Shown: positions 1,075-4,206 of the stretch, piece by piece
Position numbering within the stretch: position 1 is the stretch's first letter
Layout: each line of letters starts with the position of its first letter
NCBI GenBank assembly: GCA_913020235.1
Contig: CAJWBT010000169.1
Location: forward strand, 1 to 5,661
Direction of reading: 5' to 3'
Length of the DNA stretch: 5,661 nt
Origin: an uncultured Chloroflexota bacterium
GTDB taxonomy: Bacteria > Chloroflexota > Dehalococcoidia > UBA3495
The notes under the pieces: model-generated
Told to the model about the DNA's origin: nothing
Seen by the model: the letters and a program-made list of their open reading frames with translations, nothing else
Databases searched by the model: none
Translations under genes and position numbers: made by a program

Positions 1075-2106
1075 TTGGGCACAAACTCCGAGATGAAATA
1101 CCGGGTGCTAGCTGAGATAGCGGTGTCGGAGGGAGAGCTATCGCGGGAGCAGTGCCACGCAGTACTGCAAAGCCCCGACGCCGACATACTCCAGCTCCTG
1201 GACGCCGCGTTCCGGGTCCGGCGGCACTTCCGGGGCACCGGTGTCCGCCTGCACATGCTGGTGAACGCCAAGAGCGGGCTCTGCTCCGAAGACTGCCACT
1301 ACTGCTCCCAGTCCCAGGTGTCGACGGCGGAAATTGAAAAATACCCCTGGCTCACCGAGGAAACACTCCTGGAAGGGGCCAGGCGGGCGAAGGAAGCGCG
1401 GGCCCGGCGCTACTGCATTGTCGCCAGCGGCAAGGGACCCACGGACCGGGAGGTGGACCACCTGGTCCGGGTCGTCCAAACCATCAAGAGCCAGGTGGAC
1501 ATCGGGATATGCTGCTCGGTGGGCCTACTTACCGAGTCGCAGGCCCACCTGTTGAAGGGTGCGGGAGTGGAGCAGCTCAACCACAATCTGAACACCAGCC
1601 AGCGATACTATCCGCTGGTGTGCACGACCCACACCTACGAGGACCGGTTGGCCACCCTGATGGCTGCCCGGCGCGCCGGTCTTCAACTTTGCACCGGCGT
1701 CATCTTCGGCCAGGGTGAAACCGCGGATGACATCGTCGATGTAGCGTTGGCCCTACGGGAGTTGGCGCCTGAGTCGTTGCCGGTCAACTTCCTGCACCCA
1801 ATTCCGGGAACGCCTTTCCAGCACTTCAACTATTTGACGCCCTTTCAGTGCCTTCGCATCCTGTGCCTGCTGCGGTTCTTGTGTCCCGCCCAGGAAATCC
1901 GGGTGGCCGGAGGGCGGGAGCACCACCTGCGGACCCTTCAGCCGTTGGCGCTCTACCCGGCCGATTCCATCTTCGTTGATGGGTATCTCACCACGCCGGG
2001 GCAAGGACCTGAAGACGCGTGGAAGATGGTCCATGACATGGGCTTCGAGGTCCAAGAACCTGCCGGTGAGGCCGGTCCGGCGAGCGGGGAGACCCTGGGT
2101 CACTAG
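1075..2106 (+). CDS. bioB: Biotin synthase (radical SAM)
   Basis: The protein is 343 residues, the usual BioB length, with a TTG start; an ATG at Met7 is the alternative. BioB inserts sulphur into dethiobiotin to make biotin, using a [4Fe-4S] cluster with S-adenosylmethionine and a sacrificial [2Fe-2S] cluster. The radical-SAM CxxxCxxC is CSEDCHYC (C70, C74, C77) after HMLVNAKSG. The expected [2Fe-2S] ligands are present with E. coli-like spacing: C114 (YCIVASGKGPT), C146 (GICCSVGLLT), C206 (LQLCTGVIFGQGE), and the unusual Arg ligand, probably R276 in IRVAGGRE. Substrate-site NHNLNTS (169-175) and the C-terminal YLTTPGQG signature (304-311) are intact, so the enzyme should be active. The last 15 or so residues are a low-complexity Gly/Ala/Glu tail. 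No other bio genes and no recognisable BirA- or BioR-type operator lie nearby, so its regulation is not visible. Confidence 0.96.
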   Translation: MGTNSEMKYRVLAEIAVSEGELSREQCHAVLQSPDADILQLLDAAFRVRRHFRGTGVRLHMLVNAKSGLCSEDCHYCSQSQVSTAEIEKYPWLTEETLLEGARRAKEARARRYCIVASGKGPTDREVDHLVRVVQTIKSQVDIGICCSVGLLTESQAHLLKGAGVEQLNHNLNTSQRYYPLVCTTHTYEDRLATLMAARRAGLQLCTGVIFGQGETADDIVDVALALRELAPESLPVNFLHPIPGTPFQHFNYLTPFQCLRILCLLRFLCPAQEIRVAGGREHHLRTLQPLALYPADSIFVDGYLTTPGQGPEDAWKMVHDMGFEVQEPAGEAGPASGETLGH

Positions 2107-2458: not shown

Positions 2459-2654
2459 CAGCTCAAAGGGAATTGTGCGAGAGATTGTGGGCGGATGAGA
2501 CCCCTGCTACCACCACACTATACCGGCCCAGGGGCGCCAGGATCCCACGGTCAGCTTTCACCAGCCCGTCAGCCCTCTGGACCGCCCGTCGATCCCGTGC
2601 TCCAAGTCGGATTATCTCAAGTCACAGCTTCGAAGGAGCCCAGGAGGATTCGAA

Positions 2655-2942: not shown

Positions 2943-3007
2943 TCAACGGAATAACTCCGGCCCAGCCCGGCGAGGCTGGGTCGATCAAAAAGGGGAGGCT
3001 TCAAGAG

Positions 3008-4129
3008 ATGCGGGTACTTTGGATTGGATATGGACAAGCGGGGGGGAAGATAGCCAATACCCTGCGGGCGACGAACCGGAGACTCTATGAGGCGATAGCT
3101 ATAAACACGGAGCAAGCGGACCTGGTTGGGCTCAACCACATCCGCGAGAAGGTCCTCATAGGAAGGTATGCCCTCAAGGGCAGGGGAGTCGGAGCGAACA
3201 TAGAGCTAGGTGCAAGCATTGCCGAGAAGGCCCTGTCTCAGGTGATGGATAGGATCGACAACCTCGTACACAGATTTGATCCGGAGGCTTTCTGGATCGC
3301 GGCCGGGCTGGCCGGGGGAACCGGGGCCGGTGGCTCCTATGTCTTGGCCAATGAACTCAACCGGGTTTACCGGGGTACCCCCGTCTATGCGCTGGGAGTC
3401 GTCCCTTCGGTAAGTGACATGCCTTCGGACAAAGAGGCGCTCAGTCTTTCGAATGCGCTCAAGAGCTTCGAGTTGTGGAGCCACTATTTCAACAATATAC
3501 TGCTGGTCGACAATCAGCAGTATGAAGACGAACTGGTCAGCCGGGAATCGGTGGAACGCATGTATCAACGGGTGAATGAGAAATTGGCGTTGACACTGAC
3601 CACCCTGCTGAATGCGGGCGAAGTTAGGCCTTCACCTCAGGAGGTCTTCAGCTCGTCCGAGATCAAGGCAACCCTGGGCCTGATCGGCGATGTGTCGACC
3701 ATCGGGTATTGCAGCGAAGCAGTGAAGTCGAAGGGCCGGCCTTGGCGCAAGGGGATCGACCCCGGCACCCACGAGTTGGAGAGCATTATCGAGAGAAGCA
3801 TTATGAAAAGCGCGCTGACCTTCCCGTGCGACGTCACCGGAGGCCGGTCCGCGGCCCTGGTGGTCCATGGGAGGCCGGACCATCTTTTCACTCAACCAAT
3901 ATCCAGAGGGAGGGCCCATCTCGAGCAAATGACCACGGTCGGCAAGGTGAGATACGGGGATTACCCCGAAAACGGAAGCAAGTATCTCTCCGCCGTGACC
4001 CTGGTTTCGGGAATCAGCGACTTCTCAAGACTGGACCAGATGAAGAAACGGGTGGAAGAATTGAGCTGGACCGCGGCGGACGCGCGACCAGCTTCTACCG
4101 ACGGCGTTCCGGAGCCTTCTACCTTCTAG
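3008..4129 (+). CDS. CetZ-like tubulin/FtsZ-superfamily GTPase
   Basis: The protein is 373 residues. The ATG follows AGGGGAGG (2991-2998) with a 9-base spacer. Family members bind GTP and polymerise into cytoskeletal filaments. In order: T1 nucleotide loop GYGQAGGKI (7-15); AINTEQADLVGL (31-42); VLIGRYALKGRGVGANIELG (49-68); tubulin signature loop T4 AGGTGAGG (102-109); GTPVYALGVVPS (123-134); N149, a probable guanine contact; LLVDN (165-169); a T7 region NAGEV (202-206) then VFSSSEI (213-219); and DVSTIGYCSEAV (228-239). The GxGQAGGK start, KGxGVGAxxELGA block and GAGEV...SSEI T7 are hallmarks of CetZ, best known from haloarchaea, rather than of bacterial FtsZ, which has an NxDxxD T7. E218 falls where Haloferax CetZ1 has its T7 glutamate (E218, from memory), but the usual preceding Asp is Ser here. 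The tail after about 340 is a short amphipathic stretch plus a Pro/Ser/Thr-rich end. A strong terminator follows. The family call is firm; filament role and exact subfamily are inferred. Confidence 0.9.
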   Translation: MRVLWIGYGQAGGKIANTLRATNRRLYEAIAINTEQADLVGLNHIREKVLIGRYALKGRGVGANIELGASIAEKALSQVMDRIDNLVHRFDPEAFWIAAGLAGGTGAGGSYVLANELNRVYRGTPVYALGVVPSVSDMPSDKEALSLSNALKSFELWSHYFNNILLVDNQQYEDELVSRESVERMYQRVNEKLALTLTTLLNAGEVRPSPQEVFSSSEIKATLGLIGDVSTIGYCSEAVKSKGRPWRKGIDPGTHELESIIERSIMKSALTFPCDVTGGRSAALVVHGRPDHLFTQPISRGRAHLEQMTTVGKVRYGDYPENGSKYLSAVTLVSGISDFSRLDQMKKRVEELSWTAADARPASTDGVPEPSTF

Positions 4130-4167
4130 CCGGCAAGGACCCCAAATCCGGTTCCAATTCCCCAGGG

Positions 4168-4206
4168 AAAGCCCTCCAGTCCCCTCCGGAGGGCTTTCTC
4201 TTTGTG
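4168..4206 (+). terminator. Rho-independent terminator after the CetZ-like gene
   Basis: AAAGCCCTCC (4168-4177) pairs perfectly with GGAGGGCTTT (4188-4197) around a 10-base loop, followed by a T-rich run (TTTCTCTTTGTG, 4195-4206). It lies 39 bases after the stop at 4129 and separates the CetZ-like transcript from the CheX-like gene. Confidence 0.85.

Follow-up and report, generated by a model that had tools for sequence, protein, structure and literature searches.

The stretch of DNA analysed here, 5,661 nucleotides long and called the window throughout, carries a gene for a tubulin-superfamily GTPase, cetZ, together with the features collected in Table 1. A homocysteine methyltransferase gene (PF02574) on the + strand is cut by the window edge, and only its end is present. 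The initial annotation had judged the neighbours of cetZ to look bacterial, naming this methyltransferase, BioB and a CheX-like protein, and all three were found. It had also named a bacterial-style terminator. A hairpin does follow cetZ, but similar sites occur in shuffled sequence (5 terminator-like sites in 3 kb versus 2.9 ± 1.9 in shuffles), so that it argues only weakly for a terminator.

Table 1. Features of the window (positions count from its first nucleotide)
Feature	Position	Strand	Remarks
BioB	1075..2106	+	TIGR00433, 383 bits, cut-off 225; start TTG in the longest frame, or ATG at 1093
AGGAGG, Shine-Dalgarno-like, before small ORF	2642..2647	+	read from sequence
Small ORF, 78 aa	2655..2891	+	C-x-H-H-W ... 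C-x-x-C motif; 116 bp upstream of cetZ
AGGGGAGG, Shine-Dalgarno-like, before cetZ	2991..2998	+	read from sequence
cetZ, 373 aa	3008..4129	+	start ATG at 3008, stop codon ends at 4129; tubulin-superfamily GTPase domain residues 3-171, CetZ_C domain 180-349
T7 loop, codons 215-218 (S-S-S-E)	3650..3661	+	first acid is Ser here, second (Glu) kept
C-terminal peptide DGVPEPSTF, codons 365-373	4100..4126	+	pattern [DEN][GNS][VIL]xE
Terminator-like hairpin after cetZ	~4164..4201	+	hairpin scan, weak evidence
CheX-like protein, 158 aa	4686..5162	+	PF13690

The small reading frame upstream of cetZ, on which the initial annotation did not remark, has a homologue at the same place in nearly all related loci. 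In 17 of 18 loci of the window's clade (clade A, see below), the gene next to cetZ on its upstream side, on the same strand and 116-232 bp away, encodes the motif C-x-H-[HY]-W ... C-x-x-C; L140 (5′ end missing) was left out of this count, and L003 is the one locus without such a gene. The small protein matches no Pfam or NCBIfam family above the curated cut-offs, and its motif suggests that it may bind zinc. Of the 50 genomes in the UBA1141 family, 36 encode members of this small-protein family, with 1-6 matches each.

The other neighbours are variable. A CheX-like gene is found near cetZ in 2/19 loci (the window and a related locus, L002), with 4/19 loci ending at or just after cetZ, and we reject CheX as a conserved partner. 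BioB and the methyltransferase are rejected as conserved neighbours as well, since the other 18 loci have neither. A downstream gene block is common to 10/19 loci, and other flanks occur in the window, in L001/L002 and in L126/L127; since the flanks differ in this way, the pair of small gene and cetZ has outlived changes of its surroundings.

Elsewhere in the window, positions 795-921 (127 bp) have perfect 14-nt inverted ends (GTACTCAGTCAACT), and resemble a small non-coding mobile element; two copies of the 11-mer that lies inside these ends turned up in 0/200 shuffles. Positions 2160-2246 form a hairpin whose 19-nt arms (GTCATTCCGGC...) show 95% complementarity and which resembles a repetitive extragenic element. 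An Rfam search returned nothing above gathering scores.

A CetZ protein with an altered T7 loop

The window protein is a true CetZ and not an FtsZ. The CetZ_C model (PF21011) matches with 103.6 bits (E-value 1.1e-29, cut-off 21.6) and the Tubulin model (PF00091) with 73.3 bits (4e-20), FtsZ_C is absent in the Pfam search, and the FtsZ model TIGR00065 reaches 59.7 bits against an NCBIfam cut-off of 295.2. The best sequence match among solved structures is 4b46 (residues 1-350, 195.9 bits, 1e-56), followed by 4b45 with 138 bits; the best FtsZ structure after these scores 37.6 bits, over no more than residues 3-177. We take 4b46 to be Haloferax CetZ1 and 4b45 to be CetZ2, the PDB molecule names of both saying FtsZ. 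The motifs from which the GTPase core had initially been read as CetZ (GYGQAGGK, KGRGVGANIELGA, AGGTGAGG, NAGEV and SSSEI) are all in the translation, and together with the CetZ_C and 4b46 scores they bear that reading out. Residues G7, G9, G103, G104, G106, G108, N149, N169 and N190, presumably GTP-site residues, are invariant across 66 aligned rows, and the GTPase domain thus has the intact nucleotide motifs by which a CetZ is recognised.

Comparison with L002 revealed 170 silent codon differences and 91 that change the amino acid; third positions account for 212 of the 338 base differences. This excess of silent and third-position changes points to a coding gene under purifying selection. 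An origin from a phage or plasmid tubulin of the TubZ/PhuZ type was considered and rejected, because a phage search returned no match to the window protein and the 28 plasmid records that match it are all haloarchaeal. One protein of group B (see below) matches 29 plasmid records, 28 of them haloarchaeal by name. PHROGs returned one weak family of unknown function.

In tubulins and FtsZ, the T7 loop of each subunit supplies the remaining part of the GTPase site in the next one. The canonical loop with both acids (Hv D215 and E218), which is not part of the CetZ definition, is not found in the window protein, and this change is shared by its clade. Position 215 is S in 81, N in 15, A in 3, G in 2 and D in 2 of 103 clade proteins (15 of the 118 clade proteins, shorter than 340 aa, were left out), so that the first acid is lost in 101/103, whereas Asp occupies this position in all 66 rows from other groups (B 14, C 11, D 15, halo 14, methano 4 and FtsZ 8). 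Position 218 is E in 102 of the clade proteins and D in one.

The clade also appears mostly to have a C-terminal peptide of its own. The pattern [DEN][GNS][VIL]xE, chosen post hoc after seeing the sequences, occurs within the last 12 residues of 42 among 57 clade proteins of 370-376 aa (these 57 being the part of the 118 that the count covers), compared with 65/2850 random 12-mers from the same proteins. Among clade proteins of 350-354 aa it was found in 3/30.

Carriers, likely descent and the apparently murein-less background

Carriers of the window's clade are bacteria, belonging to Dehalococcoidia/SAR202 (Chloroflexota); organism-level statements for the window rest on these close relatives, and record names and the literature are the basis for taking the class to be Dehalococcoidia. 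A protein-database search found 128 relatives of the window protein. Among the 120 listed, those named by organism are Dehalococcoidia or Chloroflexi, bar the last two, which are haloarchaeal CetZ proteins with 37% identity to the window protein. The closest named genome records are SAR202 Io17-Chloro-G4 and Dehalococcoidia UBA1141 (76% identity), and Chloroflexi bin.164 is a further named record with a window-type CetZ. Of 50 genomes in the UBA1141 family, 16 have a protein of the clade, with 63-80% identity; in G424 and G434 the gene is a fragment at a contig end. The separate canonical ftsZ for which the initial annotation proposed to look is present in all 16 carriers, its product scoring above the TIGR00065 cut-off in each. 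Across the family, 48/50 genomes have an FtsZ over the TIGR00065 cut-off, with best matches per genome of 348-397 bits.

Of 393 genomes sampled from the class, 105 have CetZ_C above the cut-off, with up to 5 matches each, as have 26 of 400 sampled from the phylum, all 26 already positive in the class sample; both sets are samples of larger groups. Among 14 control genomes, CetZ_C was found in Haloferax only. A further CetZ-side tubulin group (L082-L092), of ~417-425 aa and with a start like MKLVVVGTGQGGSNIADEF, occurs in 16/50 genomes of the UBA1141 family, 5 of which also have the window's clade (same hit pattern).

We calculated a tree of 84 proteins and a second one of 68 rows, from which long branches (P0117, L186, L187, L026_0 and L017_0) and group C, likewise long-branched, were left out. 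P0091 (short, with an odd C-terminus) was omitted from both trees, and L007 was left out for a run of N. The 84-protein tree splits the CetZ-side rows from FtsZ at 100/100 support; the window protein thus does not branch inside ordinary bacterial FtsZ, which had been named as the outcome that would overturn its reading as CetZ. In the same tree the bacterial CetZ proteins form clade A, which contains the window protein (100/100), clade D (100/100) and a B+C cluster (100/99). Clade A is sister to haloarchaeal CetZ at 94/90 in this tree and at 98/94 in the 68-row tree, and clade D follows next (94/86 in the 84-protein tree). This position of clade A makes descent from archaea by transfer likely. 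The AU test does not reject a tree in which all bacterial CetZ proteins group together (p-AU 0.09), and there may have been one transfer or several; constraining A+D together gives p 0.035 and A+B+C p 0.11. The archaeal rows represent haloarchaea and Methanosarcinales. A wider archaeal sample was sought with a stretch of the 3zid chain as query, and among the 120 of 276 matches listed, the named ones are Methanosarcinales-type or unspecified Euryarchaeota/Halobacteriota. CetZ of Archaeoglobales, Methanomicrobiales and Thermococcales, as well as TubZ, PhuZ and BtubA/B, lay outside the tree, so that any naming of the donor would be provisional. The initial annotation had offered the alternative of an undescribed bacterial CetZ clade or a transfer from archaea. 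The transfer is likely from this tree, but "undescribed" was too strong a word, as Dehalococcoidia CetZ-like proteins have been mentioned before (PMC9871819).

We also inspected 20 hand-picked loci of groups B, C and D. In group B, the cetZ-like gene adjoins a GAPDH-like gene in L151, L152, L153 and L159, with an enolase-like gene near in 3 of these (all named by eye). Five loci of this group (L151, L154, L156, L158 and L160; 5/20 of the non-A loci) encode, beside the cetZ-like gene or within three genes of it, a long coiled-coil protein rich in alanine, of 465-900 aa and in one case truncated at a contig end. It is a possible filament partner, and the mutual similarity of these proteins may reflect low complexity only. 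In group D, the cetZ-like gene of L142, L143 and L144 adjoins a gene for a small protein that seems, by eye, to be secreted and anchored in the membrane, followed by a second, larger one.

SAR202 bacteria are described as having S-layers and no murein in PMC11994032, and the murein genes as lost once, ahead of Dehalococcoidales and of the marine/SAR202 radiation, in PMC10284905 and PMC10608941; from these three papers, murein and flagella are reported to have been lost once within the class. In our class sample, MraY matches at E ≤ 0.001 in 166/393 genomes and exceeds its cut-off in 153; the 13 matches under the cut-off may be other transferases, and two archaeal control genomes also match. 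An MraY match was found in 1 of 105 genomes with CetZ_C versus 165 of 288 without it (44 expected; Fisher 1.7e-29, kinship ignored). The sole overlap is genome G352, whose MraY match (E 1.7e-8) is far below the cut-off, and bacterial CetZ is thus confined, in the class sample, to genomes without a sound MraY. The murein-less state does not require CetZ, since 123 of the 227 genomes without an MraY match also have no CetZ_C. Murein loss was probably a single event, so the exclusion between CetZ and MraY counts as one correlation, not many; the absence calls rest on incomplete genomes.

Within the UBA1141 family, MraY exceeds its cut-off in 0/50 genomes. One carrier (G429) has a weak match of 52 bits, under the cut-off, and all 34 genomes without the window's clade are also without an MraY match. 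FliG_C is found in 1/50 (24.5 bits, cut-off 23.3). The MreB model exceeds its cut-off (27 bits) in 49/50 genomes, with none above 60 bits. Nearly all of these matches fall in reading frames about as long as DnaK (~600-700 aa) or as FtsA (~415-545 aa, many right beside ftsZ), and the model also matches control genomes (two archaea and Corynebacterium). From these low scores, frame lengths and control matches we read MreB as absent from the family. G420 and G424, both of this family, have 19 and 13 archaellin-domain matches and no MraY or FliG match.

Proposed role and rival readings

We propose, at odds that we put close to even (about 0.5), that the window protein may be a GTP-binding cytoskeletal protein of likely archaeal descent in the tubulin superfamily, whose filaments would shape the cell or order its S-layer envelope. 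Its hosts would divide with their ordinary FtsZ, and the gene content of the relatives suggests cells that lack murein, MreB and a flagellum. The protein would most likely polymerise with GTP into membrane-associated filaments with a part like that of CetZ1 in haloarchaea, which are wall-less too. In an S-layer bacterium without MreB, and by analogy with Haloferax CetZ1 (PMC11621097), a GTP-driven CetZ filament beneath the membrane would be the likeliest organiser of shape or envelope. The small protein with the Cys/His motif, and likewise the C-terminal peptide, may serve CetZ as adaptor or regulator. Because the first acid of the T7 loop is lost, slow GTP hydrolysis and, with it, long-lived filaments would be expected. 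Weighing against the proposal are the single old murein loss that may lie behind the MraY pattern, the 123 genomes with neither MraY nor CetZ_C, the distribution of MraY matches within the UBA1141 family, the wide occurrence of the small-protein family, the L003 locus without the small gene and the rarity of the C-terminal pattern among clade proteins of 350-354 aa.

The same loss of the first acid in 101/103 clade proteins could instead mean that dynamic filaments were given up, leaving a metabolic scaffold or a GTP-binding regulator that does not polymerise. CetZ has been proposed, in PMC9856176, to help localise biosynthetic enzymes, and a GAPDH-like gene adjoins the cetZ-like gene in 4/20 of the relatives' loci (by eye). 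The retained GTP-site motifs, the second T7 acid (E in 102/103, D in one) and the purifying selection speak against this reading, and we consider it unlikely but not negligible. Somewhat less likely is that CetZ, acquired together with an archaellum, places archaella and chemotaxis arrays at the pole like Haloferax CetZ1. CetZ1 affects the placement of archaellum and chemotaxis proteins and archaella are known in Chloroflexota, according to PMC11621097 and PMC12488501, respectively. In its favour, the window and L002 have a CheX-like gene after cetZ; against it, no more than these 2 of the 19 loci have one nearby. Archaellin (PF01917) is more frequent among carriers of the UBA1141 family (7/16 versus 5/34 non-carriers, Fisher 0.036), although 9/16 carriers have no match to it. 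As a general role, archaellum placement is not supported: the association has no class-wide support (15/105 genomes with CetZ_C versus 55/288 without, Fisher 0.30) and becomes negative among the 227 MraY-less genomes (14/104 versus 33/123, p 0.014).

A role as a second division protein that joins FtsZ at the septum, like archaeal FtsZ1/FtsZ2 pairs, seems less probable again. It would suit carriers that appear to have no murein, and hence not the usual septal machinery, and that all (16/16) have FtsZ as well. However, 34/50 family genomes manage without the window's clade, cetZ and ftsZ are on different contigs in the 16 carriers, and the protein has no FtsZ_C domain and groups with CetZ, not FtsZ, in the tree. 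Contamination with an archaeal contig, or a binning error, is very improbable and close to refuted. The relatives are MAG-derived, which would allow for it, but the neighbouring genes look bacterial, the clade recurs in 16/50 genomes of one bacterial family, and the closest named archaeal protein among the matches listed has ~39% identity (P0117, at 43%, could be archaeal or bacterial). The kin of the window are not archaeal contigs, contrary to the case in which the gene would have been an ordinary CetZ.

If the proposal of an envelope- or shape-organising filament is correct, CetZ would do in a wall-less bacterium what CetZ does in archaea. More tentatively, and as a scenario that we regard as possible but not probable, a branch of Dehalococcoidia may have lost murein, MreB-type elongation and flagella, then taken up archaeal CetZ, perhaps more than once, and expanded it to as many as five copies that serve shape and S-layer; the window's clade would be a derived, slowly hydrolysing form with a small co-encoded Cys/His partner. 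The CetZ domain occurs in about a quarter of the sampled genomes of an abundant bacterial class, almost only where MraY is missing. This makes two questions testable: which cytoskeleton shapes a bacterium after the loss of its wall, and whether CetZ is tied to a wall-less envelope rather than to being archaeal.

Comparison with known systems

In the accessible parts of the papers, CetZ is still called archaea-specific in PMC9856176 (2023) and PMC11621097 (2024), and the available passages on Chloroflexota archaella and cultured SAR202 (PMC12488501, PMC13319060, PMC10444878) do not mention CetZ, tubulin or FtsZ. PMC7203096 (2020) names CetZ six times and Chloroflexi 112 times. Our search of the open-access literature showed, among the papers listed, no study devoted to bacterial CetZ. 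Bacterial CetZ has been noted in passing before: passages of PMC9871819 (2023) have one sentence that calls the CetZ-like proteins of Dehalococcoidia sparse and paraphyletic, and another that deals with their C-termini. Those proteins share with the window protein the host class and a C-terminus matching the CetZ model; the same passages hold nothing on groups, the neighbour gene, the active-site change or wall loss. As far as open-access searches reach, the extent of bacterial CetZ, its near-exclusion from MraY genomes, the upstream gene and the altered T7 loop are new.

The FtsZ of the same genomes is likewise a tubulin-superfamily GTPase, but it has an FtsZ_C domain (L113) and reaches 348-397 bits with TIGR00065, on which the window protein scores 59.7. 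The CetZ-like group of Methanothrix and Methanosarcinales (3zid) is also CetZ-side and branches outside A, D and haloarchaeal CetZ; one of the four Methanosarcinales rows used has a precomputed CetZ_C match.

In haloarchaea, CetZ coexists with FtsZ in cells without murein. The window protein resembles haloarchaeal CetZ1 and CetZ2 (4b46 and 4b45) in this setting, and in its full-length Tubulin and CetZ_C domains, its GTP-site motifs and its second T7 Glu. Unlike these two, it belongs to a bacterial host, has 37-39% identity to CetZ1-type rows, has the first T7 Asp replaced and is without the CetZ1-type acidic tail. Its clade also differs from them in carrying a C-terminal peptide that appears to be its own and, upstream of cetZ, the gene for a small protein with a Cys/His motif.
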